Source of the DNA: Branchiostoma floridae
Lineage: Eukaryota > Chordata > Leptocardii > Amphioxiformes > Branchiostomatidae
Assembly: GCF_000003815.2 (NCBI RefSeq)
Contig: NC_049986.1
Coordinates: forward strand, 2,705,782-2,769,781
Length of the DNA: 64,000 bases
Reading direction: 5' to 3'
The translations under genes and the position numbers were made by a program. Each line of letters starts with the position of its first letter. Position 1 is the stretch's first letter. Positions 1 through 62,586 of the stretch are shown one piece after another. The notes beneath the pieces are model-generated. The model was not told where the DNA came from, ran no database searches, and saw only the letters and a list, made by a program, of their open reading frames with translations.

Positions 1-89
1 TGCTGCCTGTGCAGACGTCGCAGCTCCTGGGACCGGTCAGGACTGTACGTGTAACACTGGGTATGAGGGAGATGGATACACATGTACAG
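1..89 (+). CDS. EGF exon 1 (partial)
   Basis: 3' part of an EGF exon cut by the window edge. The donor GT follows at 90-91 and the exon ends in phase 1. Confidence 0.85.
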
Positions 90-3000
90 GTAATATCATA
101 CTTACCTTCGCCAGAAGTTATGTTTTGAGCGTGTCTGTCTGTCTGTTAACAGCTTAACTCGAGAAGCCTTGAATGACCCTGATGCTTACCTGGTATGTGG
201 GTAGGGATCAGGAAAACGAAGGTCAAATTCGATATTGAGACTTAGTGGCTTCCTAAGGTATTGCAGCAAAGCCAATTTCCAATGCAAATATTTATCTTTG
301 TTTTTGAAGATATCGATGGATGTACTGGCGACCCGTGCGATGCCAATGCTGCCTGTGTAGACGTCGCAGCTCCTGGGACCGGTCAGGACTGTACGTGTAA
401 CACTGGGTATGAGGGAGATGGATACACATGTACAGGTAATATCATACTTACCTTCGCCAGAAGTTATGTTTTGAGCGTGTCTGTCTGTCTGTTAACAGCT
501 TAACTCGAGAAGCTTGAATGATCCTGATGATATTTGGTAGGTGGGTAGGGATCAGGAAAACGAAGGTCAAATTTGATATTGAGACCCTAGTAGCTTCCTA
601 AGGTATTGCAGCAAAACTAATTTCCAATGCACATATTTACCTTTGTTTTTGCAGATATCGATGGATGTACTGGCGACCCGTGCGATGCCAATGCTGCCTG
701 TGCAGACGTCGCAGCTCCTGGGACCGGTCAGGACTGTACGTGTAACACTGGGTATGAGGGAGATGGATACACATGTACAGGTAATATCATACTTACCTTT
801 GCCAGAAGTTATGTTTTGAGCGTGTCTGTCTGTCTGTTAACAGCTTAACTCGAGAAGCCTTGAATGATCCTGATGATATTTGGTAGGTGGGTAGGGATCA
901 GGAAAACGAAGGTCAAATTTGATATTGAGACCCTAGTGGCTTCCTAAGGTATTGCAGCAAAACTAATTTCCAATGCACATATTTACCTTTGTTTTTGCAG
1001 ATATCGATGGATGTACTGGCGACCCGTGCGATGCCAATGCTGCCTGTGCAGACGTCGCAGCTCCTGGGACCGGTCAGGACTGTACGTGTAACACTGGGTA
1101 TGAGGGAGATGGGTACACATGTACAGGTAATATAATTCTTCATTGTGTGTAATAGTGTGTGTGTTTGTGAACAAAGAATAATAAGGGAAGCTGCAATGCA
1201 CTTTATCATGTCCAGGGTGTTGATGAATGTTGGCAATATGTAAAACGATTAGATTGTTAGGTCACTGTTAGATTTACAAAACTCTGGTTACTGGACAATT
1301 GTACGTATGAGTTCTGTTTAAACCCATGCTTGGAATACATTTGTGAACGTTGGATTATTTTCTAATTTACGTAGCAAGCCATTTCCATTGTGCCTACATT
1401 TGTTTTTTGTTTCGCAGATATCGATGGCTGCGATCCCAACCCGTGCGATGCCAACGCTGCCTGTGCAGACGTCGCAGCTCCTGGGACCGGTCAGGACTGT
1501 ACGTGTAACACTGGGTATGAGGGAGATGGATACATTATTTGTACAGGTAATATGTTTCTCTTTATTATGTGTAATTTTGCATGCGTGTATGTGTCAGTGT
1601 GCATATTTATGCACGTATTTGTTTATGTGTTTGTGAACAGCGGTCAATAAGGGATGTTGCTGACATATTTTAATTAAGGGTTAATGACCCGCCCCGAGGT
1701 GTACATGGTGTCATAACGCGTGGTCCTTTGCTATAACCACCGAATGAAACCATGAAACCACCGAGTGAGCGAAGCGAACGAGGTTGTTTTATGAGGTGGT
1801 TATAGCAAAGGACTAGGCGTTATGACACCATGTACACCGAGGAACAGGCGGGCCATCAACGTTATTATCATATAGCCTACCCAAACTTGCAAACTCCTGT
1901 ATGACGCATAGATCCCTTGGTACTATACAGTGTGAATTCCGTTGTCGAATTTCTGAAAATTCACATTTGTTCCATGGTACATAAATTTGTAAGGAGATTA
2001 CAGATTGCATTTTGAAACCAAAAGTTCCACAGAGAATATTCGAAACAGTGCAGTCTTTGGTTTTTTAGAACAAAACTCATTACCAATGTTAACAGAAGGA
2101 GCCTGTACTTATTCCCTCTGCTCTGGCATATGTTTCGCTCGTTTTGATTGGCCAATGCCTGCATATCCCTTACTTTCCTGTGTGCATTACTCATTTTGAT
2201 TGGTCAGAACGAATCGACACCGCCACCGGTGTCGATTTGCATCGACACTGCCGGTGTCGATTCATTCTGACCAATCAGAAGGAGCGAACACACCGGCCTG
2301 GCCGGAATCTATATGTTACTGCGTCATAACCAACATGGAACGGGGCCTTCTGATTGGTCCACGGCGCCTGGCTATATGATAATGGTTTTCAATGCATTGG
2401 TAAGTTTTTGGTAATGTGAAGAAATGATTATTTTATTCTTTAAATTTTTACCTTTAAGTACAAACATTTTATTCACCACTGGCCACGTGACAATTGTAGT
2501 TCTTGAATCTGAATAATAATAATACGTCCATAGTTGCAGTTTTTTTTAATATCAATTTCGGAGTATGTACTAGTTGATGCATCACACTATTCCCATCGTG
2601 GCCACATTTACCTTTTCTTCTGCAGATATCGATGGATGTGCTGGCGACCCATGCGATGCCAATGCTGCCTGTGCAGACGTCGCAGCTCCTGGGACCGGTC
2701 AGGACTGTACGTGTAACACTGGGTATGAGGGAGATGGATACACATGTACAGGTAATATCATACTTACCTTCGCCAGAAGTTATGTTTTAAGCGTGTATGT
2801 CTGTCTGTCTGTCAACAGCTTAACTCGGGAAGCCTAGAATGATCTTGATGCGGGGCGCAATGTTGGTAGGGATCAGACAAACGAAGGTCAAATTCGATAT
2901 TGNNNNNNNNNNNNNNNNNNNNNNNNNNNNNNNNNNNNNNNNNNNNNNNNNNNNNNNNNNNNNNNNNNNNNNNNNNNNNNNNNNNNNNNNNNNNNNNNNN

Positions 3001-6000
3001 NNNNNNNNNNNNNNNNNNNNNNNNNNNNNNNNNNNNNNNNNNNNNNNNNNNNNNNNNNNNNNNNNNNNNNNNNNNNNNNNNNNNNNNNNNNNNNNNNNNN
3101 NNNNNNNNNNNNNNNNNNNNNNNNNNNNNNNNNNNNNNNNNNNNNNNNNNNNNNNNNNNNNNNNNNNNNNNNNNNNNNNNNNNNNNNNNNNNNNNNNNNN
3201 NNNNNNNNNNNNNNNNNNNNNNNNNNNNNNNNNNNNNNNNNNNNNNNNNNNNNNNNNNNNNNNNNNNNNNNNNNNNNNNNNNNNNNNNNNNNNNNNNNNN
3301 NNNNNNNNNNNNNNNNNNNNNNNNNNNNNNNNNNNNNNNNNNNNNNNNNNNNNNNNNNNNNNNNNNNNNNNNNNNNNNNNNNNNNNNNNNNNNNNNNNNN
3401 NNNNNNNNNNNNNNNNNNNNNNNNNNNNNNNNNNNNNNNNNNNNNNNNNNNTAATATCATACTTACCTTCGCAGAAGTTATGTTTGAGCGTGTCTGTCTG
3501 TCTGTCTGTCGTTAACAGCTTAACTCGAGAAGCTTGAATGATCCTGATGATACCTGGTATGTTGGTAGGGATCAGGAAAACGAAGGTCAAATTCGATATT
3601 GAGACCCTAGTGGCTTCCTAAGGTATTGCAGCAAAACTAATTTTCAATGCACATATTTACCTTTTGTTTTTTGCAGCATATCGAATGGATGTCTGGCGAC
3701 CGTGCGATGCCAATGCTGCTGTGCAGACGTCGCAGCTCCTGGGACCGGTCAGACTGTCGTGTAACACTGGGTATGAGGGAGATGGATACACACGTNNNNN
3801 NNNNNNNNNNNNNNNNNNNNNNNNNNNNNNNNNNNNNNNNNNNNNNNNNNNNNNNNNNNNNNNNNNNNNNNNNNNNNNNNNNNNNNNNNNNNNNNNNNNN
3901 NNNNNNNNNNNNNNNNNNTTGGTAGGGATCAGGAAAACGAAGGTCAAATTCGATATTGAGACCCTAGTGGCTTCCTAAGGTATTGCAGCAAAACTAATTT
4001 TCAATGGACATATTTACCTTTGTTTTTGCAGATATCGATGGATGTACTGGCGACCCGTGCGATGCCAATGCTGCCTGTGCAGACGTCGCAGCTCCTGGGA
4101 CCGGTCAGGACTGTACGTGTAACACTGGGTATGAGGGAGATGGATACACATGTACAGGTAATATCATACTTACCTTCGCCAGAAGTTATGTTTTGAGCGT
4201 GTCTGTCTGTCTGTCTGTCTGTCTGTTAACAGCTTAACTCGAGAAGCCTTGAATGATCCTGATGATACCTGGTAGGTGGGTAGGGATCAGGAAAACGAAG
4301 GTCAAATTCGATATTGAGACCCTAGTGGCTTCCTAAGGTATTGCAGCAAAACTAATTTTCAATGCACATATTTACCTTTGTTTTTGCAGATATCGATGGA
4401 TGTACTGGCGACCCGTGCGATGCCAATGCTGCCTGTGCAGACGTCGCAGCTCCTGGGACCGGTCAGGACTGTACGTGTAACACTGGGTATGAGGGAGATG
4501 GATACACATGTACAGGTAATATCATACTTACCTTCGCCAGAAGTTATGTTTTGAGCGTGTCTCTCTGTCTGTCTGTCCGTTAACAGCTAAACTCGAGAAG
4601 CCTTGAATGATCCTGATGATACCTGGTATGTGGGTAGGGATCAGGAAAACGAAGGTCAAATTCGATATTGAGACCCTAGTGGCTTCCTAAGGTATTGCAG
4701 CAAAACTAATTTTCAATGCACATATTTACCTTTGTTTTTGCAGATATCGATGGATGTACTGGCGACCCGTGCGATGCCAATGCTGCCTGTGCAGACGTCG
4801 CAGCTCCTGGGACCGGTCAGGACTGTACGTGTAACACTGGGTATGAGGGAGATGGATACACATGTACAGGTAATATCATACTTACCTTCGCCAAAACTTA
4901 TGTTTTAAGTTTTTAGCGTGTCTCTCTGTCTGTCTGTTAACAGCTTAACTCGAGAAGCCTTGAATGATCCTGATGNNNNNNNNNNNNNNNNNNNNNNNNN
5001 NNNNNNNNNNNNNNNNNNNNNNNNNNNNNNNNNNNNNNNNNNNNNNNNNNNNNNNNNNNNNNNNNNNNNNNNNNNTGGTATGTGGTAGGGATCAGGAAAA
5101 CGAAGTCCAAATTCGATATTGAGACCCTAGTGGCTTCCTAAGGGTATTGCAGCAAAACTAATTTTCAATGCACATATTTACCTTTGTTTTTGCAGATATC
5201 GATGGATGTGCTGGCGACCCGTGCGATGCCAATGCTGCCTGTGCAGACGTCGCAGCTCCTGGGACCGGTCAGGACTGTACGTGTAACACCGGGTATGAGG
5301 GAGATGGATACACATGTACAGGTAATATCATACTTACCTTCGCCAGAAGTTATGTTTTGAGCGTGTCTGTCTGTCTGTCTGTCCGTTAAAGGGGCCGGTA
5401 AAACTATATAAAGAGCAGATAATATAAACTATGCCCTTCAATACGCTACAGGCACCCATACAGTGCACATCAGTGGTGGCCTGGCTGAGAAAGTTTATTA
5501 CCAAGTACAAGTTACTCTTCAAATCATGTCTGAAATCTAGAGACAAAAGAGAAATTAAAGTAAGAATACACATAAAGAAGTTAGCTTGAAGAACACTTAG
5601 CCCAGAATATGAAGTAATGAAAAACACTGGGTTGCTCTTCAGTCTGAGACATTGGCTGGCAGTTATGTGTGCAGTTCTACAGAGCACAGGACTAAATTGG
5701 TTCCTTACTATAAGTCAAGTATTACAAGTCATATTTCTACACACACAACTCATGAGAGCTAATTCAGCTATAAGGAAGACATTTTCAAGTTTAAAAATGC
5801 AGATGCAAATAGATACTCTGTTACAATTTTGAGGTAATTTGAAATTTGAAAAAAATTTGTTCTTTCAAGAACTGCATGTAGTATTATCTTATTATCACAT
5901 GATATTATCTAATTGAAACCTTGCATTGTGTAACTTTGTTACTTACTTTGGATCATTCTGTATGATTTGATAATGTTCCTATGAAAACCAGTACTTTGAA

Positions 6001-9000
6001 CCAGTACAGTATTTGAATCTGTGACCAGTAATATGCTAATCTGTCTCTGACCATTGTTTCTAGCTGGTAGACAGTATGAGATGTTTATGAGTTTATGTGG
6101 TTATGGGGGTCAATCCACCATTCAAACTGCTGGACAAGTCACAGTGGGAGCACTTCCTTATTGTTCTTGACCTGGGCAAGAAACCAGCCGGTTTAACAGC
6201 TTAACTCGAGAAGCCTTGAATGATCCTGATGATACCTGGTAGGTGGGTAGGGATCAGGAAAACGAAGGTCAAATTCGATATTGAGACCCTAGTGGCTTCC
6301 TAAGGTATTGCAGCAAAACTAATTTTCAATGCACATATTTACCTTTGTTTTTGCAGATATCGATGGATGTACTGGCGACCCGTGCGATGCCAATGCTGCC
6401 TGTGCAGACGTCGCAGCTCCTGGGACCGGTCAGGACTGTACGTGTAACACTGGGTATGAGGGAGATGGATACACATGTACAGGTAATATCATACTTACCT
6501 TCGCCAGAAGTTATGTTTTGAGCGTGTCTCTCTGTCTGTCTGTCCGTTAACAGCTAAACTCGAGAAGCCTTGAATGATCCTGATGATACCTGGTAGGTGG
6601 GTAGGGATCAGGAAAACGAAGGTCAAATTCGATATTGAGACCCTAGTGGCTTCCTAAGGTATTGCAGCAAAACTAATTTTCAATGCACATATTTACCTTT
6701 GTTTTTGCAGATATCGATGGATGTACTGGCGACCCGTGCGATGCCAATGCTGCCTGTGCAGACGTCGCAGCTCCTGGGACCGGTCAGGACTGTACGTGTA
6801 ACACTGGGTATGAGGGAGATGGATACACATGTACAGGTAATATCATACTTACCTTCGCCAGAAGTTATGTTTTGAGCGTGTCTCCCCCCCCCCCGGTCTG
6901 AATAGGGTTAACTCGAGAAGCCTTGAACGATCCTGATGATACCTGGTAGGTGGGTAGGGATCAGGAAAACGAAGGTCAAATTCGATATTGAGACCCTAGT
7001 GACTTCCTAAGGTATTGCAGCAAAACTAATTTTCAATGCACATATTTACCTTTGTTTTTGCAGATATCGATGGATGTACTGGCGACCCGTGTGATGCCAA
7101 TGCTGCCTGTATAGACGTCGCAGCTCCTGGGACCGGTCAGGACTGTACGTGCAACACTGGGTATGAGGGAGATGGATACACATGTGCAGGTAATATCATA
7201 ATTCTTTATTATGTGTGATTGTTCCTGTGCGCGCGTGTGTTTGTGTGTGTGATGGTGTGATGAGATTGATACACATGTACAGGTAATATACTTCTTTACT
7301 GTACGTGACTTTGTTGTTGTGTGTGTTTGTAACCAACGAGATTGTGACCTCAATATTAGATAGAGTCAATTAGCGCGTGTAACCTGATAATCAGTCAGGG
7401 GTTCTTAATAATGAAACGGCCTTGTTTCTTTTTATGAATATTCGAGAAGTTTCTAGTTTCTCTAGCGAACTACTATTTCCATCGTGCACACATTTACCTT
7501 TTTTCTGCAGATATCGATGGATGTGCTGGCGACCCGTGCGATGCCAATGCTGCCTGTGTAGACGTCGCAGCTCCTGGGACCGGTCAGGACTGTACGTGTA
7601 ACACTGGGTATGAGGGAGATGGATACACATGTACAGGTAATATCATACTTACCTTCGCCAGAAGTTATGTTTTGAGCTTGTCTGTCTGTCTGTCTGTTAA
7701 CAGCTTAACTCGAGAAGCCTTGAATGATCCTGATGATACCTGGTATGTTGGTAGGGATCAGGAAAACGAAGGTCAAATTTGATATTGAGACCTAGTGGCT
7801 TCCTAAGGTATTGCAGCAAAACTAATTTTCAATGCACATATTTACCTTTGTTTTTGCAGATATCGATGGATGTGCTGGCGACCCGTGCGATGCCAATGCT
7901 GCCTGTGTAGACGTCGCAGCTCCTGGGACCGGTCAGGACTGTACGTGTAACACTGGGTATACGGGAGACGGATACACATGTACAGGTAATATTATTTTGT
8001 TATATTTCATTATGTGATTCTTTGATTTTAGTATGTTTTATTTTGGACTAGCTTGATCTTTTTCTTTTGGTAGATGTACTTCGTCTATGAATTGACCACA
8101 CCACAAGTATTAAAGATATTAGCGCGATGATACACGTTCTTTTTTTTGATAGAGGGGTGCTATCACATTTTTTCACTAATACTAGTAATAGACGCCAATT
8201 AAATATTATAGTCAAAATTAACTGACTTGTACTGCATTATGTATACTTTTTTTTACTGCAGCCGATAGCGGATCCGAATGTGACCCAAACCCTTGTCTGT
8301 ACGGAGGTACCTGTCTGGAGCTGTCCCCATCTGGCTATAGTTGTCAGTGCAGAAGCGGCTACATCGGAGACAACTGTCAAATCGGTTTGACTCGACATTT
8401 GTCTTTAATAGAGTGTCTTCCCTTTTACAATGTTTATTCTATCGTGGTGCGATGAATTTCTCCAGAATTTCTAACTTTAACTTCTCTTAGAATTCTGGGA
8501 CAATTTTCTCCGAGAAATGTTGTGCGTGGAGACATTTTGGTCTGCAAACAAACAAACATTGATATTTTGTATTAGTTTTGAAATTAGATGATTCATGCAT
8601 GAAAGTAAATCATATTGGCATGGCCATTACTGATATTCAAGATGAAAGAATTTGCTCATTCTCAGTGTTTTACGCCTACTTTTAGTATTTTTGTTAGCCT
8701 CCTTTGCAGAATTGTAGATCTAGTGTAACTGGCCTTTATTTTATGGGGGCACGCTAGTTCGCGATTTTCAACGCTGGCTGGGGTTCCCTAATGCAAGGAA
8801 AGGGAATATCACCGCTTCCACGGCAAACCCTCTTCCCGGTACTAGAGAACCTTGAAAATCGTGAACCAGCGCCCCCCCCCCCCGCCCCAGAAGTCTGCCT
8901 AGGAGGCTTAGTATCTATTTGTTGGTTTATAATATTATCTACTATTTAACGTAAGTAGCCATTGGTCCGAGAGGTATGACGTCATACCCCCTATAAACAA

Positions 9001-11315
9001 AAGAGGCGCGCATGACTATTGCACTCTTCTCACTGACCGGTCCTCCGGCTACGTCAGGAGCCTGAAGCGAACCCTCCCGCCCACCCGACATGTTTCCGAT
9101 TTGGGCGCTGAGAGGCTATGATCCAAAGGCATCTTTAGGCTCCTGACGGCAATCTTCCGCATCACTCATACCGGAGGACTGATGGCTACGCACGATAAAA
9201 AGGATACTGTTTTCTAGTGTTATTTTCTCATGGTTCGCGTCTTCTTAGGTCATTGTAACTTTACAAAGCTTGTATATTCTAAGTAGGGGTTGCTATATAT
9301 AGTTTGCAAAATACATTTTGTATTACTTTTCCTAACATTCCCAGGTTGCAACATTCAGCACCCCAATTTCCCAGCCGATCGATTTGCCATCGACAGCGAG
9401 AATCGTTGTTACTGGTTCTCCAGGTACAGCGATAAGGCCAAACAGGCAAGTGCCGAGAAATCTTGCATCGATGGCGGAGGAAAGCTCGTCAGAGTGAGGA
9501 CCGCTGCCAAACAACAGTTTCTTGTGGACAACATCGCAAAGTTTGGGCTGAGGTGCGTTCATACCCTTTATAGGGCCTTCACATTGAAACCGACTTAGCA
9601 GGAATCAAGCAGAACCAGCCGGAATGAAGTATTTGCAAAATTCGGGTGGGAATTCCAAATGGACCTTATATCCCCTTCACACGAGAAGGAATGAGCCAAA
9701 ATGCCGTCAGAATGAAAATTCTTTTCTATTCCTGCGAATTCGTAGTGTATTCGAGAAATTCTTACTGCATTCCAGATATTCTTTTGGCCACATTTGGGCA
9801 GGATTCGAAGTGGCTTGCCGTTTCAATTATCCATCGAATGACGTAAGAATGTTTCAAATAATATTGGAATGCCGTAGAATGCGGTCATACTGCAGTCAGA
9901 ATAGTTAGCATACACTTAGAATCCACTTTGAATGCCATTCGATATTTCTCCACTTCGAATGCACCTCGACAGTTTTTAACATGTCAAAAGACCGGGCACA
10001 AATAGCTGGAATGAGAATTTCTGGAACACACTACGTCAGGAATTGCCAGGCAGGAATAGAAAAGAATTTTCATTCCGACGGCATTCCGGCTGATTCTTGC
10101 TCTCGTGTGAAGGGGGCTTTATGTACAGCATTTGGTGGTAAAGCTCGAATCTCGATGTCATGAGAGAGGATGTCTTAGGTATTTACAGGACATTTCATTT
10201 ACAGTTTACATATTACACTTGGCTTGGGAATGCAAACGACTGCGCTAGGTAAGAATTATCTTCCTATTTCTGTCCTATAGAACCTATTGGATTGGTTTGG
10301 ATGACAAAGGCAAAGGAAGGGAGAAAAAGTTCAGGTGGAGCGACGGGACGAATTACGATACCATCTCCGGCTACCACAACTGGCGCTTTGGGTCCTTCCC
10401 ACGGAAGCATAAGTACCGAGACTGCGTCGCCATTTCTAGAGTTCGCTCTGAATGGGTGGTGCTCCATTGCAAGAAGGCTGGACATCCTTATATCTGTGAA
10501 ATGGGTGAGTAAAGTTTGGACGTGATCGGTAAAAAAACGTCAATGTTGAACTGTACATTATGTCTAAGATGAATAAATGATCCAAGTGGAAGTCCATGGC
10601 CAGATATGTATATTGTTGCTGTGAAATTCACAGGCTTGTGGAATTCACACAAACCAGACTGACGTTCATGTCTACTCAAGTGGCCATGAGTATGTCATAG
10701 TTTCCGTCGACATGGATCTTGACTTTATATTATTGTTTGCCTGTGCTCACAAAGAGGACTCATCTACAAGCATTTTTGTTAGAAGCGCCAAAAAAGGAAA
10801 ATGCATAAATTTATGACTGTTTGACACTTGCCTGCTAAACCGTCGCTGTACCTTTTTTCAGAAGTGTTATCCTTTGGATTAAATTGTCTTCTCGCTAAGC
10901 GTTTCAGCTCTTTACTGAATCAAATCGATTCTCTTGTACTACTTTACGTACTGGCGTCATCTGCCTATACAACCAGAGGTTCGGCTCCGGCTGTTTTTGA
11001 CGTGTTTTTATAGGGCTTTCTATTTTGCCGTTTTTGTCTGGCCGGCGGGCATAAAGAAACGGTACAAAATAGAAAGCCCGATAAAAACACCTACAACAAC
11101 TTAGAAAACAGCCGGAGCCGAACATCTGCTTGAAGAGTATGATCTGCCATCGTGTCTTCAATTTTACTGCTATTGTATGAGGCTTGTTAAGGGGTTCAAC
11201 GGCTCACAGAGTCTTAGACCACTCAATGCTATTGTATGGGACTGGTTAAGGGTTTTTAACCTGTCACGGACCAGACTGTCGTTTGTTTGCAGATACGACC
11301 CTGCCGAATCCCTGA
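1..11315 (+). CDS. Multi-EGF / C-type lectin-like protein gene (5' end outside window)
   Basis: Gene model assembled from splice sites and phases. Visible coding exons are: sixteen near-identical EGF exons (the first cut by the window edge, one damaged), one divergent EGF exon (8262-8384), two exons of a C-type lectin-like domain (9345-9552 and 10281-10504), and a probable terminal exon ending at 11315. All EGF exons are phase 1-1. The CTLD exons run phase 1 to 2 and 2 to 1, so the chain stays in frame throughout. The product would be an extracellular protein with a long EGF rod and a lectin-like head; no signal peptide or membrane segment is visible because the 5' part is missing. Role is inferred as adhesion or recognition. 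Two N-gaps and probably two hidden exons lie in the array. No named orthologue is recognised. Confidence 0.8.
310..435 (+). CDS. EGF exon 2
   Basis: 126 bp, phase 1-1, six cysteines, starts DIDGC. The acceptor is GAAG rather than the GCAG used by the other units, so it may be used less well. It has Val where most units have Ala (AACVDV). Confidence 0.85.
655..780 (+). CDS. EGF exon 3
   Basis: 126 bp, phase 1-1, with GCAG acceptor and GTAATATC donor. It encodes the consensus unit DIDGCTGDPC...CNTGYEGDGYTCT. The opening D-I-D resembles calcium-binding EGF, but the usual Glu before the first Cys is Gly. Confidence 0.9.
1001..1126 (+). CDS. EGF exon 4
   Basis: 126 bp, phase 1-1, consensus unit. 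It is followed by a different intron type (291 bp, GT-rich start). Confidence 0.9.
1418..1546 (+). CDS. EGF exon 5 (one extra codon)
   Basis: 129 bp, phase 1-1. It starts DIDGCDPNPC and has an extra Ile before the last Cys (GYIICTG instead of GYTCTG), giving two residues between Tyr and Cys. This is the most divergent member of the main array and probably an older unit. Confidence 0.88.
1674..2400. mobile_element. Complex foldback elements in an EGF-array intron
   Basis: 1678-1745 and 1797-1862 are inverted copies (GGTGTACATGGTGTCATAACG...CCTTTGCTATAACCACC). A second hairpin lies at 2197-2282 with nested ATCGACACCGG palindromes, and CATATAGCC (1869) is mirrored at 2370. A related copy is at 47551-47690. 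Confidence 0.65.
2626..2751 (+). CDS. EGF exon 6
   Basis: 126 bp, phase 1-1, with Ala in DIDGCAGDPC. The preceding 1079-bp intron carries foldback elements at 1674-2400. Confidence 0.9.
2903..3451. other. Assembly gap (549 N) probably hiding two EGF exons
   Basis: The left edge stops inside the intron motif that lies about 73 bp before an exon, and the right edge starts at the second base of the donor that follows an exon. One unit would need about 200 bp and two units about 546 bp, close to the 549 N. Confidence 0.6.
3677..3795 (+). pseudogene. EGF exon 7, damaged copy at gap edge
   Basis: Clearly the same exon but with several one-base insertions and deletions against its neighbours, all near two N-gaps. 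The intron before it also has homopolymer-length differences. Low-quality read ends are a likelier cause than real decay. The exon end lies in the 123-N gap. Confidence 0.6.
4032..4157 (+). CDS. EGF exon 8
   Basis: 126 bp, phase 1-1, consensus unit. The following intron has a longer TGTC run (232 bp). Confidence 0.9.
4390..4515 (+). CDS. EGF exon 9
   Basis: 126 bp, phase 1-1, consensus unit with identical splice sites. Confidence 0.9.
4744..4869 (+). CDS. EGF exon 10
   Basis: 126 bp, phase 1-1, consensus unit. The intron after it holds a 100-N gap at 4976-5075. Confidence 0.9.
5196..5321 (+). CDS. EGF exon 11
   Basis: 126 bp, phase 1-1, DIDGCAGDPC variant. The following intron carries the 803-bp TTAA insertion. 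Confidence 0.9.
5390..6192. mobile_element. 803-bp insertion at a duplicated TTAA in an EGF-array intron
   Basis: The host intron is interrupted after TTAA (5386-5389) and resumes with TTAA (6193-6196). Removing 807 bp gives an intron of exactly 228 bp, the same as the introns at 4516-4743 and 6483-6710. The insert is AT-rich and starts AGGGGCCGGT; the reverse of its end starts ACCGGCTGG, so inverted termini are weak. TTAA duplication is the hallmark of piggyBac-type transposons. No transposase is visible, so a non-autonomous element is the best call. Confidence 0.75.
6357..6482 (+). CDS. EGF exon 12
   Basis: 126 bp, phase 1-1, consensus unit directly after the TTAA insertion. Confidence 0.9.
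6711..6836 (+). CDS. EGF exon 13
   Basis: 126 bp, phase 1-1, consensus unit. Its intron carries a transposon-end footprint (6883-6911). Confidence 0.9.
6883..6911. mobile_element. Short poly-C plus GGTCTGAATAGGGTTAA footprint
   Basis: In this unit the usual TGTC run and TTAACAGC are replaced by a C-run followed by GTCTGAATAGGGTTAA. The same terminal sequence ends a longer repeat at 18265-18292 and, in reverse, begins repeats at 20846 and 24858. It is probably the last bases of a TTAA-targeting element. Confidence 0.5.
7064..7189 (+). CDS. EGF exon 14
   Basis: 126 bp, phase 1-1, with several private changes (Ile in AACIDV, Ala before the donor). A 3' exon relic with donor (7258-7290) lies 70 bp downstream in its intron. 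Confidence 0.88.
7258..7290 (+). pseudogene. Relic of an EGF exon 3' end plus donor
   Basis: A stretch matching the last ~22 bases of the EGF exon (GATTGATACACATGTACAG) followed by the donor GTAATAT, without any 5' part. It is probably left from an unequal crossover in the array. Confidence 0.6.
7511..7636 (+). CDS. EGF exon 15
   Basis: 126 bp, phase 1-1, DIDGCAGDPC and AACVDV. The upstream intron resembles that before exon 6 (TTTTCTGCAG acceptor). Confidence 0.9.
7860..7985 (+). CDS. EGF exon 16 (last of array)
   Basis: 126 bp, phase 1-1. It carries CNTGYTGDGYTC instead of CNTGYEGDGYTC. The donor is GTAATATT and the following intron is unrelated to the array type. Confidence 0.9.
8262..8384 (+). 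CDS. EGF exon 17, divergent
   Basis: 123 bp, phase 1-1, between TACTGCAG and GTTTGACT. It encodes SECDPNPCLYGGTCLE then YSCQCRSGYIGDNC, a classic non-calcium EGF with six cysteines. It links the EGF array to the lectin-like domain. Confidence 0.88.
8743..8890. mobile_element. Foldback element in intron
   Basis: Imperfect inverted repeat: the left arm with GTTCGCGATTTTCAACGCTGG reappears reversed on the right before a C-run. A related end occurs at 51958-52075 in the HVCN1 intron. Confidence 0.6.
9037..9183. mobile_element. Foldback element in intron
   Basis: GTCCTCCGG...GTCAGGAGCCT on the left is mirrored on the right as AGGCTCCTGACGG...CCGGAGGAC. No coding capacity. Confidence 0.6.
9345..9552 (+). 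CDS. C-type lectin-like domain, N-terminal half
   Basis: 208-bp exon, phase 1 in and phase 2 out, between CATTCCCAG and GTGCGTTC. It encodes a Cys-containing lead-in, RCYWFSRYSDKAKQASAEKSC and GGKLVRVRTAAKQQFLVDNI. This matches the first half of a CTLD: the aromatic strand, the first core cysteine and the L-V-R-V strand. It is joined to the EGF part in phase 1 and continues at 10281. Confidence 0.85.
9571..10117 (+). mobile_element. 547-bp MITE, family copy 1
   Basis: Both ends carry inverted GGCCTTCACA / GTGAAGGGGGC-type termini, and the inner arms are palindromic (AATGCCGTCAGAATGAAAATT mirrored near 10060). It is flanked by TTTA at 9567-9570 and 10118-10121. A near-complete copy lies inverted at 15169-15767 and truncated ones at 58990-59176 and 62412-62586. 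It sits in the CTLD intron. Confidence 0.75.
10281..10504 (+). CDS. C-type lectin-like domain, C-terminal half
   Basis: 224-bp exon, phase 2 in and phase 1 out. It encodes TYWIGLDDKGK, FRWSDGT, YRDCVAIS, EWVVLHCKKAG and YICEM, which fit the WIGL core, the CVAI and HC strands and the final YICE of a CTLD. The calcium and sugar motifs are missing: no EPN or QPD, and no WND before the HC strand. A calcium-dependent sugar-binding role is therefore unlikely, and protein or other ligand binding is more plausible. Confidence 0.85.
10978..11122. mobile_element. Foldback element, long hairpin
   Basis: Arms GTTCGGCTCCGGCTGTTTT and its reverse complement enclose a second mirrored block (TATAGGGCTTTCTATTTTG / CAAAATAGAAAGCCCGATA). 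It lies in the last intron of the EGF/CTLD gene. Confidence 0.7.
11293..11315 (+). CDS. Probable terminal coding exon of EGF/CTLD gene
   Basis: A good acceptor (TCGTTTGTTTGCAG) is followed, in the phase 1 left by the CTLD exon, by seven codons ending in TGA (D-T-T-L-P-N-P-stop). AATAAA lies at 11353-11358. In another frame the segment reads YDPAESLNDN, faintly kelch-like, but that frame does not fit the splice phase. Confidence 0.45.
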
Positions 11316-12589: not shown

Positions 12590-12595
12590 TTTATT
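12590..12595 (-). terminator. Polyadenylation signal AATAAA of kelch gene
   Basis: On the minus strand AATAAA lies 63 bp after the stop codon at 12658-12660, a position that fits a real 3' terminal exon. Confidence 0.55.
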
Positions 12596-12657: not shown

Positions 12658-14963
12658 TTAGCCCTTTATGGCCTTCTGTCCGTGATTGTAGCAGTAGCTG
12701 TTTTCACACAGTGTACGGAAGAAGTTCCCTTCGAAACACTGCCCCTCGTGTAGGGTGTTCTCTTCGACATCGAGGATGTATAGGTTGGAACTCTGCGTAT
12801 ATCCGGTACGGATGTAGAGCCTGTTGTTGGCAACAGACGTGGTGAAAATGTCTACGTCCTCCAAAGACTGACGCACTAGGATATCGGCGTACCTCCAACC
12901 GTGCACATCATACGTATGAACAGAGACTTTGTGTCTGTTTCGTTCACGGTCGCTCTCTGAAACCTCGATGAATACGGCCTTCGTCCCAACGGCTGTTATG
13001 GTAAGGTTCGATGAAGTGAATATTCGCGCAGGTAGCCTGACTAAAATCGCGCCCCTAGCGGCCGGCCCTACGATTGCCGCCCCCTTAGGAGGGAGGGGGT
13101 CATTAAGCCCAGCCGGCAAGAGCTTGTGTAAACACAGGCGGGTCTCACTAAATACCGAAAACAACCGAAAACAACCGAAAACAACCGAAAACAACCGAAA
13201 ACAACCGTAAACAACCAAAAACAACCGAAAACAACTTTCACTAATTACCGAAAACAACCGAAAACAACTTTTAACTACCGAAAACAACCGAAAACAACTT
13301 TTAACTACCGAAAACAACCGAAAACAACTTTTAACTACCGAAAACAACCGAAAACAACTCGACACAACCATGAACAACAGACAATCATTTCAATGGGTTA
13401 TTATTTGACAATTTTCATTTTATTTAGGCAGGGGGTAGGCTAGGACGACCCATGTTATTGATACAATATTAGCAATAATAGAGTCAACGATCTCCTTTGT
13501 CCTTTTGAATATATTAATGTTCGAATTCAGATTCATGGATCCTGTATGTTATAAACGGGGACTGCTTGGTTAACTCGCAAACTCAGCAATGGATATCTTT
13601 ACTACTTGGCATCTACTGTGTAACTCCAAGCAGAGGTAATGTTGTGCGTGTATTAATGTATTTTATGTAGACAACTGGAAGAATAGCTGGCAACATAATG
13701 TTGTAATAGCTAAAAGTGGATCTGAATAAAGTTAAAGTCAAAGGTTACGGTGGAGCGGAGGTGTAGTAGTGGCCCCAACAAGAATCGCAGTCACTACTAT
13801 CCCCCGACAAAACTGCTTCGAAAGTAGGTTTGCTTATTAATTACTGTTGAATCTACCTACTGCGCATTTACCTAATCTGTACTACATTTTGTTCTAGCAA
13901 CCGAAACAATCTAGTACATTTCTTGCTCAATTACAACGCATTTCCGCTGCTACAACAAATCGGTTTAAATGGACAAACCGGAAACGTGTCTTACCACAGA
14001 GGCCCCTTATTCTGGATTAAACTAAATGATCAAAATAAGGATTTTGCTCTACATCATAAAACAGTGTGGAATATAAAGGTGTTTCCACAGTCTATATCCC
14101 CTTTGCTGGTAGAATCCTTCATTCAGAATTACCCCATTCTCTCCGTCGGCAAAGGAGAACATAATTCAAGGGATAGAAACGAGTAGATTAAAATAAAATA
14201 GAAATAAGTAGTTGTTTAAGAGTTATTTTCCGGCTGTTTTGGAGTTCTGATCGTTTGTTCATGGGTGTTTTAGAAGGTTTCGAGTTGTTTTTTGGTATTC
14301 ATTGAGTTGTTTTCGATATTTTCCGAGTTGTTTTCGGTAGATACCAAGTTGTTTTCGGTTGTTTTCGGTAGATATCAAGTTGTTTTCGGTTGTTTTCGGT
14401 AGATATCAAGTTGTTTTCGATTGTTTTCGGTTGTTTTCGGTTGTTTTCGGTTGTTTTCGGTTGTTTTCGGTATTTAGTGAGACCGCTTCCTTCAGATTCA
14501 CTCCATTCTCTCCCTCGGCAGTGGAGAAAATAATTCAAGGGAGAGTAACCAGTAGATGAAGATAAAATAGACATCGTTGTTGTTTACGAGTTGTTTTCCG
14601 GCATTTTTCGGGTTCTGATAGGTTGTTCATGATTGCTTTGATGTTTTTAAGGTGGCTTCGAGTTGTTTTCGGTATTTGTCGAGTTGTTTTCGGTATATTT
14701 CAAGTTATTTTCGGTTGTTTTCGGTTGTTTTCGGTTGTTTTCGGTATTTAGTGAGACCGACACAGGCTACCGCGCAGGTATCTTCATCCAAAACGTGTAT
14801 GGAGGATAGTAGCAATCCATGGTCACTAGAGACGAATCCTCGACGTCACCGCCGACCAGGAAGAGATTCCCGTTTGATACGACCACAGACTGATGCTCTA
14901 CCCTGCCGCGAGGCATGTCCGGCAATCTCATCCAAATGTCTGACTGGAAATCGTACCGGAAGG
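12658..14963 (-). CDS. Kelch-repeat protein, C-terminal part, split by a transposon-like intron
   Basis: Two exons on the minus strand. Exon A (about 14963 down to 14771) encodes FRYDFQSDIWMRLPDMPRGR, then VEHQSVVVSNGNLFLVGG, a textbook kelch blade, followed by YYPPYTFWMKIPAR. Exon B (13036 down to 12658) continues IFTSSNLTITAVGTKAVFIE and ends in GQKAIKG-stop, with a poly(A) signal 63 bp later. Kelch blades form a beta-propeller, often the substrate-binding part of Cullin-3 adaptors (KLHL family); no BTB or BACK part is visible here. The upstream acceptor is not clear and repeats lie upstream, so this may be a fragment or pseudogene. The intron (14770-13037) is the inserted element described separately. 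Confidence 0.75.
13035..14770. mobile_element. Transposon-like element forming an intron in the kelch gene
   Basis: About 1.74 kb flanked by the direct repeat CGCGCAGGTA (13025-13034 and 14771-14780). The ends are inverted: GTAGCCTG at one, CAGGCTAC at the other. Subterminal regions are long arrays of a 10-bp unit CGAAAACAAC (13139-13363) mirrored by GTTGTTTTCG (about 14280-14475 and 14655-14755). Internal blocks near 14110-14170 and 14490-14555 repeat each other. On the gene's strand the element begins GT and its other terminus contains CAG, so it can be spliced out. No transposase is seen. Confidence 0.8.
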
Positions 14964-14984
14964 CTTGTCCGTATGAGATTCGTA

Positions 14985-15082
14985 CGAACATTTTTTGAAA
15001 ACGCACGAACCTTACGTGATTCGCACGAATCACTATGTGACACACACGAACCTTATGCGATTTGCACGAACCTTATGCGAAA
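14985..15082. repeat. Degenerate short tandem repeat upstream of kelch exon
   Basis: GCACGAACCTTA(T/C)GYGATT-like units of about 18-22 bp occur four times. No known function. Confidence 0.5.
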
Positions 15083-15168
15083 CGCCGGGTCACGTGACAT
15101 TGCGTCATTCACCCTTGTTATGTTACAACCAGAAATTGTGTCGTAGTTTTTCCTTATGCAACCGTAAA

Positions 15169-15767
15169 GCCCCCTTTACACGAGAGCACGAATGAGCCGG
15201 AATGCCGTCAGAATGGAAAATTGTTTTCTATTCCTGGCAATTCCTGGCAATTCGTACTGTATTCTAAACATTCTTACTGCACTCGAGATATTTGTCCCCG
15301 TTCTTTTAGCTGGGTCAAAAGTTTTTGACATGTTAAAAACTGTCGAGGTGCATTCGAAGTGGAGAAATATCGAATGGCATCCAAAGTGGATTCTAAGTGT
15401 ATGCTAAATATTCTAACTGCAGTATGACCGCATTCTATCTGCGGCATTCCAACATTATTCGAAACATTCTTATCTCATTCGATGGAGAAGCGAAACGGCA
15501 AGCCACTTCGAATCCTGCCCGAATGTGGCCAAAAGAATATCTCGAATGCAGTAAGAATTTCTAGAATACACTACGAATTCCCACGAATAGAAAAGACTTT
15601 TCATTCTGACGGCATTCTGACTCATTCCCTCTCTTGTGAAGGGGATATAAGGTCCATTTCGAATTCCCACTCGGAATGGCCCCGAATGTGGCACGAGTTT
15701 TGCAAATACTTCATTCCGGCTGGTTCTGCTTGATTCCTGCTAAGTCGGTTTCAGTGTGAAGGCCCTA
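15169..15767 (-). mobile_element. MITE, family copy 2 (inverted to copy 1)
   Basis: Same termini and inner palindromic blocks as 9571-10117, in the other orientation, with TAAA at 15165-15168 and again at 15770-15773. Two such copies flank the kelch region. Confidence 0.75.
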
Positions 15768-15789
15768 TATAAACGGTGATATTTAATAC

Positions 15790-25728: not shown

Positions 25729-28700
25729 TTTTTTTTTTTATTTTTTTTTATTGGCATACATATAAGACAAGACACAGTGGTAAATGCACTCTAGCAAAGC
25801 TAATTTTAACATTACCACTAGGACATTTGAAAATAAAATAAACAAAGGACAAAACAATGTGAGATCAAATAAAAACAGTAGTACAGCAGTGGGGTGACGG
25901 ATCCAACAAATAAATATATATATACATACAAGATTTAAAGGAAAATGTCAATCAGTTTGAAAACGGTTGGTCTGGAGTATGTATGTCTGTGTAAGCTGCA
26001 TGATATGGTTATTTGTTACTGTTGGTAAAGTGGGTGAACCCTTGAGTAAAAGTTGAGTTAAGACTGGGTCAGACGTAGTTTTCAAATCAAGGGTTAAAAG
26101 GTCTTGAAGATTGCAGAGAAGGGTTTTTCTAAGATGGTTGTAGTTTGGGCAGTACAATAAATAATGGACAACGCTTTCGCATCGGGAGCCACAGCTACAA
26201 GAAGGACTATCGACTAGATTACGTGTGAATAAGCTAAAGTTCAAACTACAAGTCCCGATGCGGAGGCGTGTTAGTAAAACGCAGGCGTACCTGGGGCCAT
26301 GTCTAAAATGTGTGTTAGGGGAAGGGCGAACCAATTTTATTAAGTAGTTTTTGAATGTTGAAGGATTTAATGACCGAACAGCTAAATCAAGATCATTCCA
26401 GTGATGTGTAGCATACGGAATAAAAGACCTTTGGTAACGAGTGGTGGTACAAGCCGGTGACTGTAAGTTGTGTTTGTTACGAAGGTCGTAGGGAGTAAGG
26501 GCAGAAACTTCAGGAGTGATCAACTCCTGAAGGTACTGGCGAGTTTGACCATGAACAATTTTATGAAACATTGTCAATGAGTGAATATAGCGACGGTCAG
26601 ACAGCTTTTCCCACCCAAGTTCAGAAAGGAGTGACAAATATGAGGATCCTCTCACAGCACCTGATACTGTGAGTGAGCACTCATATTGTACTCTCTCTAT
26701 ACGTCGGGAGTCCGATATAGTGCAGCCATGCCATACTATGTCGGCGTATTCAAGAAGAGGACGAATGAAGGACTTGTAGATAACTTCGAGTACATGTCGT
26801 GGCAATTTAAATTTAAGTTTGTTAAGTGTGGACACACGTTTTGATACTTTGGCAATCATGTGTGTAATATGTTTTTCCCAAGACATGGTGGACGTGAGAA
26901 AAACACCAATGTGCTTGTGGTCTTTTACAGATTGAATGACACAGTTATCAAGAAAAAGGGGAGGATGGCAAGGGGGATCGATTTTCCTGGAAAAACACAT
27001 TTCCTCAGTTTTTAAAGGATTCAGTTTCATAAGCCATGTGGAAGCCCAACATGATATCTTACTAAGATCAGAATTTAGACTTGACGCAGTTTCGGTTGGG
27101 CTATCCACTATATCTATTAAAGAACTATCATCTGCAAAGAGAAACGGGCAAGATGATAAATCGTCCACCATATCATTGATGTAAACAAGAAATAAGAGGG
27201 GGCCTAATACAGAACCCTGTGGTACGCCTGCGCGAATATTACACCAATTTGAGTGCTGGCCATCTATAACTACTCTTTGTACACGATCAGAAAGATAGCT
27301 GTGGAACTAATTTAGGACCGGACCCTCGACCCCATTTCTTTGAAGCTTGAAAATGATGCCCTTATGCCAAACTTTGTCAAATGCACGTGAAAAATCTAAA
27401 TAAACCGCTCGGACCTCTCTATTAGAGTCAAGAGCTTCAAGAATTTTGTCAGTTACACAAACAAGTTGGCCAACTGTAGAATCTCCACGGATAAATCCAG
27501 ACTGGAGAGAATATAATAAGTTTTGGGACATCAGGTGGTTGTACAAGTGTTTAAATACAATCTTTTCAAGGATTTTAGACAAACAGGGGAGTAGGGATAC
27601 AGGTCGGTAATTCGACACATCCTCGGGGTCCCCCTTTTTGAAAATTGGTACCACATTTGCTCTTTTCCAGGATTCAGGGAAGACTCCGTGATTTAGAGAC
27701 AAGTTAAAAACATATGCAATTTTGTCAGGGATATAGGGACATATGGATTTAAGAAAACGATTGTCTACATTATCATAGCCACATGCTTTAGATACTTCTA
27801 AATCTGAGACATAAAGTTCTATCTCAGCAGCTGATGTAACACACTGTGTAAGACGAGCACTAGTAAGGAAATCAAGGGGTGGAAGTCTAGCACTGGAGTC
27901 ATCCACTGAGGCCTGAGAAGAGAAATACAAATTAAACATAGTTGCCTTTTCTCTTGAATCGGTTATAAAACAGTTGCCAGACTAAAGCGGTGGAATAGTA
28001 GAATTAACTTTACTTTGGTAGAAATGTTTCACAATGTGCCACCACTTTTTGTTGGATGAGGGGGGACTACTTAAGGAGGCAACCAGGCGGTTGTGATAAT
28101 TAGACTTGGCTAGTGATAACTGATGGACAAGTTTATTTCTAATAAGACGATATGAAGACCAATGAATAGGGCTGTTCGTTAACTTGGCTTTCTTATGCAA
28201 CTTGTCTCTCTGGTGCATTAAGCGTCTAATGTCAGGTGAAATCCAAGGTTTGTCACGAGGTCTAACGAGAATGTCCTTATGAGGCACACATTTAATTTTG
28301 GCTTCCAAAATCAGTTCCATCAACTTCTTGCTAGCTTCTTCAACAGTACCACAATAGAAAACTTCATGCCATATTGGCTCAGACGAGAAGAGTGCCAGCA
28401 AGCTGTGATCGGTTTTGGAATAATCCCAGATGGTACGGACATAAGGACGAGGGGGCCTGAGTGACAAGTTAATAGTAGCGACAATAGGGCTATGGTGGCA
28501 TCCGGAGAGGGGAGATAACACAGAGGTAGACTTGATAAGTTTTTTCTCGTTGATGAATAGAAGGTCAATCAGGGAGGGAGACCGTGACAAATCGCACGTT
28601 GGCTCCTTTATCACCTGTGTGAGATTTAACATTTTAGAAGCTTGCAATAGTTTTGTGCCGACCGAAGTGATTGGGTCATGGACCCACCATGCCTCGTGTT

Positions 28701-29408
28701 TGGCATTAAAGTCACCTGTGATAATGATGCCATCGTGTTGAGAGGATTCAGCTGTGAATACTGAGTCACTAAACAAGTCAACAAATTCATCAACAGTTTT
28801 GGAATCCTGGCCAGGTGGCCGGTAGTAGACAGAAAAGAGTAAACGGCTGCGTCCTACAAAGAGTTCAAGCCAAATGCATTCAACAGACGGTGATTCCAGA
28901 TCTAAGCGTCGTTTGTACGCTATCTGGTCAGATATGTAAATGAGGACACCGCCACCATGCCTATTTCTGTCACGACGGACTGGCAACTGAAAACCGTCAA
29001 GAGAAATTGCAAAAGAATCAACAGAATCTCCCAACCAAGTTTCTGATACAGCAATAACATCGAGGTTGAGTCTAACAGCTAGAGCAGATAGTTCGTCCAT
29101 CTTAGTGCCAGCTACTAGGCTATTGACATTTAGATGCATAACGTTAAACTGTTTACGGCAAACTGGCCCTGGATTGGGATGGACGTCTCCCGCTACTAAA
29201 ATTACTACAAAAGATATGAAAACAGTAGTGTAGGATAGGAAGATATCTAGATTCAGAGTAAGTCTAAATCTTTCCTTAGAAATTAGGCGTGAATGTGCAG
29301 AAAACAAACCAATGACTGCCCTGTACATATCAAGACCTATGAAAGCGGCCTCGCGCACCCTCTCTGCAATCTATTCAGAAGTATTGACCCGCTGGGGTTG
29401 GAGCGCTA
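25729..29408 (-). mobile_element. CR1/Jockey-type non-LTR retrotransposon (LINE)
   Basis: Reads right to left: a 5' part, a single long frame with endonuclease and reverse transcriptase (29358 to 25948), a 3' UTR of about 200 bp with AATAAA, and an A-rich tail (25729-25750 on the plus strand as T-runs). The 5' boundary is uncertain. The element is nearly full length but has two in-frame TAG codons. Confidence 0.85.
25948..29358 (-). pseudogene. LINE ORF2: APE endonuclease + reverse transcriptase, two TAG stops
   Basis: One frame of 1137 codons. N-terminus: a hydrophobic stretch then GDVHPNPGP (29164-29190), a 2A-like motif. Endonuclease: MHLNVNSL, VSETWL, YRPPGQD, ITGDFNAKHE, SLIDLLFIN; the usual Ser-Asp-His near its end reads Cys-His-His. 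Reverse transcriptase: NYRPVSLLPCLSKILEK, SGFIRGDSTV, VYLDFSRAFDKVWH (motif A), AGVPQGSVLGPLLFLVYIND (motif B) and LFADDSS (catalytic FADD). The C-terminus has a Cys/His cluster (CSCGSRCESVVHYLLYCP). TAG at 27984-27982 separates endonuclease from RT, and TAG at 27309-27307 lies between motifs A and B where a Trp codon is usual. Such proteins nick DNA and copy the element RNA into the genome. Confidence 0.9.
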
Positions 29409-32869: not shown

Positions 32870-35800
32870 GTAAGTTTTTTTTCTCTTAGGGCCAGATTTA
32901 GTTTTATGTGTACTAATTCAATGTGTATATGAGAACATTTCTAATGCATTTAATGCTGGTAAAGAGTTTCTTATCATTATTTCAACCATACTACAAATAG
33001 GGGTTGAAATATTTTGCTTTTCCTGATGTTTCTTTAATTTCCTCCACCCCTTCTTCTTCTCCTGTCAGATCTTCTAAACGATTCATCTCTATCATTTTTG
33101 GGTCAAGTGACCTGACATTTGGCGCAAGTGCAGAGTGGGACAGTGCCCATGTGCCATGTATTTTGTTGATTTTATATCTGTCGTCAAATTGATATCATTG
33201 AGGTTTATAGGCCATTTTTAGACCAAAAATGTATATCTTGCCTTCATGTATCCTGGTGTTTCAACCAAATGACGTACCTGAAATTTGGTACATTACATAG
33301 GGGTAACACATGCAGGAACATAGGTGTTTATTCTTGCACGGAAGTTTTTTTTATGGACGTGTGATGATCCAAAACTCCATTTTTCTTGCGGAAGTGGTTC
33401 TGGACTGGTATATTTTACCTTTTTAGATGTGATGCACTGGAAGTGTCCATCCTTGCACGGGGGAATATTTAAAGATTCATTCTTTCGGCTAAAGTGTGAT
33501 TAGTAGTCATTTTTAAGCAGAAGTGTATCCTTTTTTTGCACAGGGGTGATTTTGGATCCATTGTTGCATGGGGAATGAGATGGCTGAAATGTGCTGAATT
33601 TGCTCTTGAGCAAATGTCGGCCCTTCTAGTTTTATCTTTATTGCTATATTTTTTTCACGTTCCTGGATGCTTTGTGGATATTCCAGTTATATCTATATAA
33701 TTTTCCTTCATTTAACAACTAGTTGGATTTTTGACACCCTATTTCAATAGTATATGTCCCATTCTTAGTTGATTGGAAACATTTTGCATTATGTTTCGGT
33801 AAGACGTGTTAGGATTTTGATTTAAGTTTCAATGGAGTCTATCACACAAGAGTACAATAGAATAGATGCTTGTGTTTAAGTAGTACTAACAAACTCAACG
33901 ATAGACCAATGAGTCTTGCTACATTATATATATCTTATGCCTTCTCTGTTTCTCACTAATTCTCTGTAATACAAAATGTACATGTTGCCTGACTACGCTG
34001 GCATTTTCAACAAGACCTTAACGTTCTTATCATATGTCTCTTCAGAGTGCACTTATGGCGTGGTTGGCGTTGTCGTGATCATAGCTGCCTTGTTGGCGGC
34101 ATCGTTCTTTTTCGGCACCTGGCTATATTTGAGCAAAGCCAGTGGTCGGGACGCTCAAAAGGTAACGCTACGTTTCCTTTCCATTTCGAGTTGTAGCCTA
34201 CGTATATCTTTTTGTCCTTTTCACGAAGGCATTTTTAATCGTGTACCTTTTGGTCAGTTTTCATCGTGTGCCTTTTGAACAGTTTTCATTGATCATGAGT
34301 ACCGTTTGGGCATTTTTCATCGTGTACCTTTTGGGCATTTTTATCGTGTATCTTTTGGGTATTTTTCATCGTATACCTTTTGGACATTTTTCATCGTATA
34401 CCTTTTTGGGCATTTTTCATCGTATACCTTTCGGGCATTTTTTTATAGTGTACCTTTTGGGCATTTTTATCGTGTATCTTTTGGGTATTTTTCATCGTAT
34501 ACCTTTTGGACATTTTTCATCGTATACCTTTTGGACATTTTTCATCGTATACCTTTCGGGCATTTTTTTATAGTGTACCTTTTGGGCATTTTTCATCGTA
34601 TACCTTTAGGGCAGTTTTATATCGTGTACCTTTTATACATTTTTCATCGTATACCTAATGGTCATTTTTTATCGTATACCTTTTGGGCATTTTTTATCAA
34701 GTACCTTTGGGGCTGTTTTCATCGTGTACCTTTGGGGCATTTTTCGTTGTGTACCTTTCGGGCATTTTTCCTCGTGTAGTTTTTGGGCATTTTTTATCGT
34801 ATACCTTTTGGTAGGTATGGTGAAATATATTGTATTCGTAATGTTTCTTTCTTTCTCCTGTCAAATCTTCAAATCGATTCAACTCCGTCGTTCCTGGACC
34901 GAATTACTTGAAATTTGGCACAAGGGTAGAGTGGGTCAATACCCAAATGCTTTTTCTCATTTTTTTCATATCTTCCTTTAAAATGATTTTATTCATGTTT
35001 TTTGCAATTTTTATGTACATTTTGCCCCCCTGTTCCCTGGTGTTACAGCCGAATGACCTAAAATTTGGTACAGAGGTTCCTTGATCATGTGCCCACAAAA
35101 TTTCAAAAACAGTTTTGGCATACGGTACAGCAAAATGCTTAATTTTGGCATTTTTTGCCATTTTTTGGCCCAGAAATGACATTTTTTGGCTCCTATACCC
35201 CCATTTTACAACCAAATGACCTGAAATTTGGTATAGGAGTGCCGTCTACATATGCACACATGAATTCATTGACACCTTTGGCATACAGTACAACAAAATG
35301 CTTAATTTTTTAATTTTTTGGCCATTGTTTGACCAAAAACGTACGCTTTTCGCTCCTGTTCCCTGGTCTTGTAACCAAATGACCTACATTTTGGTAAATA
35401 GGTGCACTAGATATTCATTCAAATGACCCATGTATAATTTCTGGCATAAACCACTTCAAAATGATATATTTGGGTACTTTTTAAGTAATTCTCCACTGGC
35501 CAGAGGGTCAACGACCTCAAGGTCGTTGACCTCTCCCATCTGAAGACAGCATGTGCATATGTCTATATATACTAGTAACTTGATTAAAGAGGCAACCAAT
35601 CACGTAGCCTGAGTCAACATCCCGAATGGGATTGGCAGCCAATCAGTGAGCCCGGTGTTATCTGGATGAGTCCATTCTGGCACGGAGGGGGTACATATTT
35701 TTTAAATTCATCTTTCGACTGTTGATTATTTAATGTCTCTTAATGGGAGTATTTTTGAACTGGACTATTTTGCAATTTTACATGGGGTGTACTGGAAGAG

Positions 35801-58989: not shown

Positions 58990-59176
58990 CAGGTACCGGT
59001 TGGAAGAATTTTTAGAATACACTACAAATTCACAGGAATAGAAAAGAATTTCATTCTGACGGCATTTGGGCTCATTCCTTCCCGAATGGCCCCGAATGTG
59101 GCACGAATTTTGCAAATACTTCATTCCGGCTGTTTTTGCTTGATTCCTGCTAATTCGGTTTCAGTGTGAAGGACCT
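58990..59176 (-). mobile_element. MITE fragment (family of 9571-10117)
   Basis: Only the part from AGAATTTTTAGAATACACTA to CAGTGTGAAGGACC remains. Confidence 0.7.
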
Positions 59177-62245: not shown

Positions 62246-62411
62246 GTATGCCTGAATCAATATTGTTTGGTCAAACGACCATAAGTTGAAACCTAAACGC
62301 AGAGTGAACATTGTAGCAAACGAGTTCTCGAATTCCCCTGAGGACCCTTCCAATTGTGCACACTGGTGGGGGAGGACGTGACTTTGACCATGGGAACAGG
62401 TACCGGTTGGA

Positions 62412-62586
62412 AGAATTTTTAGAATACACTACAAATTCACAGGAATAGAAAAGAATTTTTATTCTGACGGCATTTGGGCTCATTCTTTCCCGAATGGCCC
62501 CGAATGTGGCACGAATTTTGCAAATACTTCATTCCGGCTGTTTTTGCTTGATTCCTGCTAATTCGGTTTCAGTGTGAAGGACCTGT
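62412..62586 (-). mobile_element. MITE fragment in copy B
   Basis: Same truncated MITE as 58990-59176, carried along by the duplication. Confidence 0.7.

Follow-up and report, generated by a model that had tools for sequence, protein, structure and literature searches.

Is the insert that interrupts a kelch gene at this locus a new intron in the making, or is it a lesion in a gene copy that is itself falling apart? A sequence-only reading of the window, by which we mean the whole 64,000-nucleotide stretch of Branchiostoma floridae DNA that was analyzed, had taken the insert for a single transposon that behaves as an intron. We compared the insert and its host frame with their relatives in the genome, which was searched as the window's own (513,431,437 bases in 431 contigs). 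The results very probably reflect nested transposons in a decaying, 5′-truncated kelch duplicate that was once long under purifying selection.

The kelch frame and its two nested inserts

The insert, of ∼1.75 kb, breaks a kelch reading frame on the minus strand between ...WMKIPAR and IFTSS.... As the sequence-only reading had observed, the coding sequence is cut between two copies of the 10-bp direct repeat CGCGCAGGTA (13025–13034 and 14771–14780), and deletion of the insert with one repeat copy restores KIPARIFTSS, here within an uninterrupted frame of 185 codons (...WMKIPARIFTSS...). With this restored frame as the reference, none of 2000 single-base shuffles was stop-free over the same length, and GC content at third codon positions (0.63 in each half) exceeds that at second positions (0.40 and 0.37). 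The remaining 5′ part (14770–14967, minus strand) runs from CAAGCCTTCCGG (QAFRYDF) to the insertion, includes one copy of the target duplication (14770–14778), and matches Kelch_4 (3.2e-07) and Kelch_1 (5.6e-07) in Pfam. The 3′ part (12658–13032, minus strand) reaches to the stop codon, holds the other duplication copy (13024–13032), and gave a weak Kelch_6 match (E 0.084); an AATAAA stands near it, at 12595. Among solved structures, the kelch frame matched KLHL17 best (6.2e-11), followed by KLHL3, Keap1, KLHL2, the NS1-binding protein, and designed kelch proteins.

The insert is not the single transposon that had been proposed but two elements, one nested in the other and each with its own target duplication. 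The outer element, M, is the 109-nt unit TAGCCTG...CAGGCTA that is left after removal of 1620 nt and one copy of ACACAGGC: its first 107 nt (TAGCCTGACT...ACACAGGC) occupy 13033–13139 on the plus strand, and its last 2 nt (TA), split off by the inner element, occupy 14768–14769. M belongs to a family in the same genome for which 40 matches were scored of 1014 first-look candidates, all 40 at 92–100% identity over 105 or 106 of 106 query bases. We compared 31 of the 39 other listed copies (11 loci and 20 further stretches, with 8 left out), all of them from the best-scoring end of the list and not a random sample. Each of the 31 aligned from first to last base without the inner element, at a length of 105–112 nt, and TAGCCTG at the start and CAGGCTA at the end were each found in 30. 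A single-element reading is ruled out by the continuity of M in all 31 copies read, together with the duplication that flanks the inner element. The M-like matches at L002 and L011 are not independent, since the similarity of their surroundings extends beyond M.

Of the 31 other copies, 16 are flanked by an exact target duplication of 9 bp and 7 by one of 10 bp; in 4 more the duplication is 9 bp long with a single mismatch, and in the last 4 it is of another kind. Two of the sixteen (L044 and L051) carry identical duplications and probably stem from a single event. Because 23 of the 31 thus have an exact 9 or 10 bp, the most plausible duplication of M in the window is one of 9 bp in which the left copy, TCGCGCAGG (13024–13032), differs at one position from the right copy, CCGCGCAGG (14770–14778), whose first base is the G of the proposed GT donor. 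The same count makes a duplication of 7 or 8 bases less likely. The 10-bp repeat and the terminus GTAGCCTG described in the sequence-only reading are both present, the latter as GTAGCCTG/CAGGCTAC at 13032–13039 and 14763–14770; part of each is nevertheless a coincidence of target and element, because the other M copies set the ends at TAGCCTG/CAGGCTA next to a 9-bp duplication. At further TAGCCTG/CAGGCTA pairs within the window, no duplication was found.

The inner element, C, is 1620 nt long (13140–14759, plus strand), has the ends GGTCTCACTAAATACC and GGTATTTAGTGAGACC, and carries long subterminal inverted arrays of the 10-bp unit CCGAAAACAA. The 16-nt GGTCTCACTAAATACC and its reverse complement, each with one extra base, are bounded by an exact 8-bp repeat, ACACAGGC, at 13132–13139 and 14760–14767. 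The terminal sequences of the two elements are TAGCCTG for M and GGTCTCACT for C. A search with C returned 198 matching pieces (40 scored of 358 candidates), with relatives of about 1.1–1.26 kb. Some 100 nt of the window copy (query 499–599; 13638–13738) are absent from the listed relatives, and its last 274 nt (14486–14759) appear to be extra, because these relatives mostly stop near query 1346; this tail repeats an inner stretch of the element, its own right end, at 76–84%. No Pfam family was detected inside M or C at E 0.01 in six frames of 13025–14780.

Target duplications of 9–10 bp point to Mutator-like transposons, and the non-autonomous elements and MITEs of that group have such duplications together with terminal inverted repeats and many copies. 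M and C resemble them in 9–10 bp duplications, terminal inverted repeats, many copies, and the lack of a recognized domain. M is short and non-coding, with terminal inverted repeats, a near-fixed duplication length, and many similar copies, which are the features of a MITE. Judged by target-duplication length and by that criterion alone, M would be a Mutator-like non-autonomous transposon (23 of the 31 other copies have exactly 9 or 10 bp). By duplication length only, C would likewise be Mutator-like, with exact 9-bp duplications at three of the seven other loci read and 8 bp in the window copy. Subterminal tandem repeats in inverted orientation are typical of Foldback-type elements, which C resembles, by array structure alone, in its long inverted arrays of a 10-bp unit.

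We therefore have two insertions to account for in the preferred explanation, that of nested transposons in a decaying duplicate. M, a non-autonomous multi-copy DNA transposon of 109 bp, inserted antisense in the kelch exon of one gene copy; C, of ∼1.6 kb and also non-autonomous, later inserted into M, no more than 10 bases from its end. The gene copy also appears to have lost the sequence upstream of QAFRYDF, its place being taken by a minisatellite.

Paralogues and the missing 5′ part

In DNA searches, the 3′ half of the kelch frame had a single relative (L064) and the 5′ half matched at 11 other places, of which three (L065, L066, and L067) were read along with L064. Neither M nor C is present at the insertion site in L065, L066, or L067 (3 of the 11 paralogous places), so that among the copies read only that of the window carries the insertion; absence from related genes at the same place is also what an introner would show. 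In L066 and L067 the frame runs past the site without a break as far as the C terminus (tblastn 2e-46 and 2e-51). L065 is the closest paralogue (86% at the DNA level); a 4-nt insertion within its target-site sequence shifts the frame, foreign sequence disrupts it ∼45 nt further on, and its 3′ part lies beyond, as L064, the sole other DNA match of the kelch 3′ part (86% over query 207–357). This closest kelch paralogue (L065 and L064, G000:C8:18120465-18122683) is thus itself broken, and it contains a 100-N gap.

The ratio dN/dS between the window copy and L065/L064 is 0.25 (dS 0.46, 124 codons), which suggests that the window copy was long under purifying selection before a recent decay. The signal of constraint comes from one close pair, since the ratio against the more distant L067 is higher, at 0.74 for the whole frame and 0.61 for the 5′ half; the corresponding values are 0.52 for L066 versus L067 and 0.54 for L065 versus L067.

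The coding continuation of the window copy ends at CAAGCC (14967), and an unrelated 20-bp minisatellite follows (truncation edge at 14968–15077, minus strand; array at 14972–15077) where the paralogues go on coding: in L065, L066, and L067 this open frame extends past QAFRYDF on its upstream side, and the last two have further kelch repeats there. The missing 5′ part gave no blastn or tblastn match in the window or in the neighbors L002–L022 (100 kb below and 110 kb above), assembly gaps excepted. BTB, BACK, or kelch models found nothing on the minus strand from 15 to 53 kb at E 0.01; as a positive control, the known kelch exon was detected at 1.1e-4 in a stretch of 1781 residues read in the same way. 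From 53 to 64 kb the search for upstream exons was by BLAST only, and a scan of the minus strand of 1–9002 returned matches to EspF repeats only, which we took as chance. Within the window and the neighbors searched, assembly gaps remaining, neither a complete BTB-BACK-kelch gene nor a complete kelch exon was found. The gaps amount to 2632 N in the window and 23475 N in the fetched neighbors, and the missing 5′ part could lie in them or be an effect of misassembly or a misjoin at 14967. As for the signs of a processed retrocopy, a run of seven As comes six bases after the AATAAA, and the flanks share no repeat longer than an 8-mer.

Because the gene copy also seems to have lost its front part, ordinary gene decay appears likely, and we infer that the window copy no longer makes a working protein. 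Against decay stands the frame of 185 codons, which has neither stop nor frameshift besides the insert, and this is the strongest argument left for some residual function. At an age corresponding to the 3.7% by which the window's M differs from its family majority, the 555 nt would have taken ∼20 substitutions, of which 4.3% create a stop; these, together with indels, might have broken a neutral frame, and some function may thus remain. An in-frame ATG precedes QAFRYDF in the window copy, and a short protein from it is conceivable.

The alternative that survives best, and that we regard as a real though minority possibility, is that the interrupted copy is an allele that is polymorphic or confined to this assembly. 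On most chromosomes the site would then be empty and the gene perhaps full-length, and the assembly would either represent a broken haplotype or have fused two sequences at 14967. Consistent with this, the M family looks young, the 31 other copies differing from the majority by 2.8% on average, and the divergence of the window copy allows its insertion to be young and polymorphic. Further, the left junction pattern was found once in the genome, and the coding frame is intact otherwise. On the other hand, no run of N marks the junction.

The proposed splice sites

The proposed intron, GT...CAG on the minus strand (13037–14770), is 1734 nt long, or 106 nt without C. The arithmetic behind it is right: removal from the GT (14770) through the CAG (13037) keeps the frame and adds 12 nt net, made up of 4 nt (GCTA) plus the 9-nt duplication minus 1. 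The claim that the element's own ends supply both the GT and the CAG is half correct. In the sense of the gene, the junctions read CCTGCGCGG|TAGCCTG upstream and CAGGCTA|CCTGCGCGA downstream; the CAG lies in the element, but only the T of the donor is M's first base, its G being the flanking base of the target. The closest paralogue, L065, reads GCGCGAATATTC across the site, and because both it and the downstream duplication copy in the window have CGCGA, the A is probably ancestral and the donor G derived. L066 and L067 are too different at the junction to inform on the ancestral base.

A new intron at this site would have arisen by an A-to-G change at the junction of target and element, giving CGCG|GTAGCC, after which GT...CAG would be spliced with four codons added and C would enlarge the intron from 106 to 1734 nt. 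The GT and CAG are in place, the frame would be kept and has remained open, the donor G is probably derived, and C is tolerated inside M, all of which fit such a history. However, the sites themselves score low. Of the 7523 GTs on both strands of the window, the donor (−2.5 bits) ranks at the 72nd percentile, and of the 6509 AGs the acceptor (−3.8 bits) ranks at the 66th, both by approximate vertebrate weights that may not suit the lancelet, and two other AGs within the element reach the 94th and 88th percentiles. By comparison, a repeated EGF-like exon toward the window's left end has acceptors of 8.6 bits and donors (CAG|GTAATA) of 3.0 bits, the acceptors having been chosen by a score of >6 bits and two of the four preceding this EGF-like exon.

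Nor is the kept frame peculiar to this pair, for 72 of the 399 GT/AG pairs around the insert keep it too. The proposed donor pairs with nine in-frame acceptors, several AGs stand ahead of the proposed acceptor, and both proposed sites are predicted to lie within one terminal stem. Added to these points is a host exon that is without its 5′ part where this was searched. Thus, the claim that the insert behaves as an intron found no support, given a donor G that comes from the target, low scores, many frame-keeping pairs, a 5′-less host, and no enrichment of open frames at the sites of other M copies (below). Neither the percentiles nor the count of frame-keeping pairs is proof that splicing is absent. 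Intron birth is possible on the sequence, but apart from the dinucleotides at its two borders, the frame arithmetic, and a frame that is still open, little speaks for it, and we consider it improbable; the insert is probably not efficiently spliced.

Slightly less credible again is the fuller version, in which we would be looking at a half-made intron of the chordate type, begun when a common 109-bp transposon entered an exon, furnished with a donor by the A-to-G change and with an acceptor by the built-in CAG at the cost of four extra residues, and later enlarged by a second transposon. Least credible is the proposal that M is an introner family spreading as introns through the genome: all 31 other copies have CAG at the antisense end (CAG|GCTA in 30) and the 106-nt length lies within the introner range quoted in the text of PMC9860276, yet a G directly precedes the element in only 5 of the 31 antisense and 9 of the 31 in sense, which leaves most copies without a GT there. 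Moreover, a frame stays open over 222 nt at the empty sites of 4 of these 31 best-scoring copies, compared with 530 of 2648 random windows drawn from one neighborhood (L002–L022) that is rich in tandem repeats.

Known introners and other repeats of the window

In the introners of Aureococcus, as described in the main text of PMC9860276, 12 bp are added, 4 bp from the element and 8 bp from the duplication, a total equal to the 12 nt found here. The likeness extends to an element with a target duplication, in which GT/AG splicing near the ends would add 12 nt, or four residues. This likeness is real, but because 72 of the 399 nearby GT/AG pairs also keep the frame it is no evidence of splicing. 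The Aureococcus element described there also differs in carrying both splice sites, whereas here the donor G comes from the target, one site only is concerned, and the M copies examined show no exon enrichment. The introner elements of Amoebophrya, in the sections of PMC7789003 that describe them, likewise have inverted and direct repeats at their borders and a predicted hairpin that joins the exon ends; unlike the present case, they occur mostly among non-canonical introns, in a dinoflagellate, and with many per genome. The words Branchiostoma, lancelet, chordate, tunicate, and deuterostome have no occurrence in the main text of PMC9860276, and a literature search on introners in amphioxus gave only work on gammarid transcriptomes.

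With the preferred reading of nested transposons in a decaying duplicate, the locus would be a clear worked example of that process, and it carries the caution that a frame-preserving GT...AG across a transposon is easily found. It also defines a 109-bp family in which 40 copies were scored of 1014 candidates and the 31 others read all have CAG at the antisense end. Because the 9-bp duplication and the tail are frame-neutral when the target base is G, this family could serve as a direct genome-wide test of the rate at which such transposons become introns in a chordate.

The window holds several other repeats. Two copies, 84% alike, of a further repeat with terminal inverted repeats lie at 15165–15770 and 9569–10121, and shorter pieces related to it at 59004–59176 and 62411–62584. 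On the minus strand, 25948–29370 is a non-LTR retrotransposon with endonuclease and reverse transcriptase domains, whose three long frames share one reading frame with two stop codons between them. Tandem arrays of 346–354 bp units, with 95–96% matches and assembly gaps between the arrays, occupy 1–1140, 3921–4975, and 6188–7200; the first contains the repeated exons that we take, from their cysteine pattern, to be EGF-like. A 25-bp unit makes up two long arrays ∼1.6 kb apart, at 34228–34811 and 36449–36984, whose registers are shifted relative to each other.
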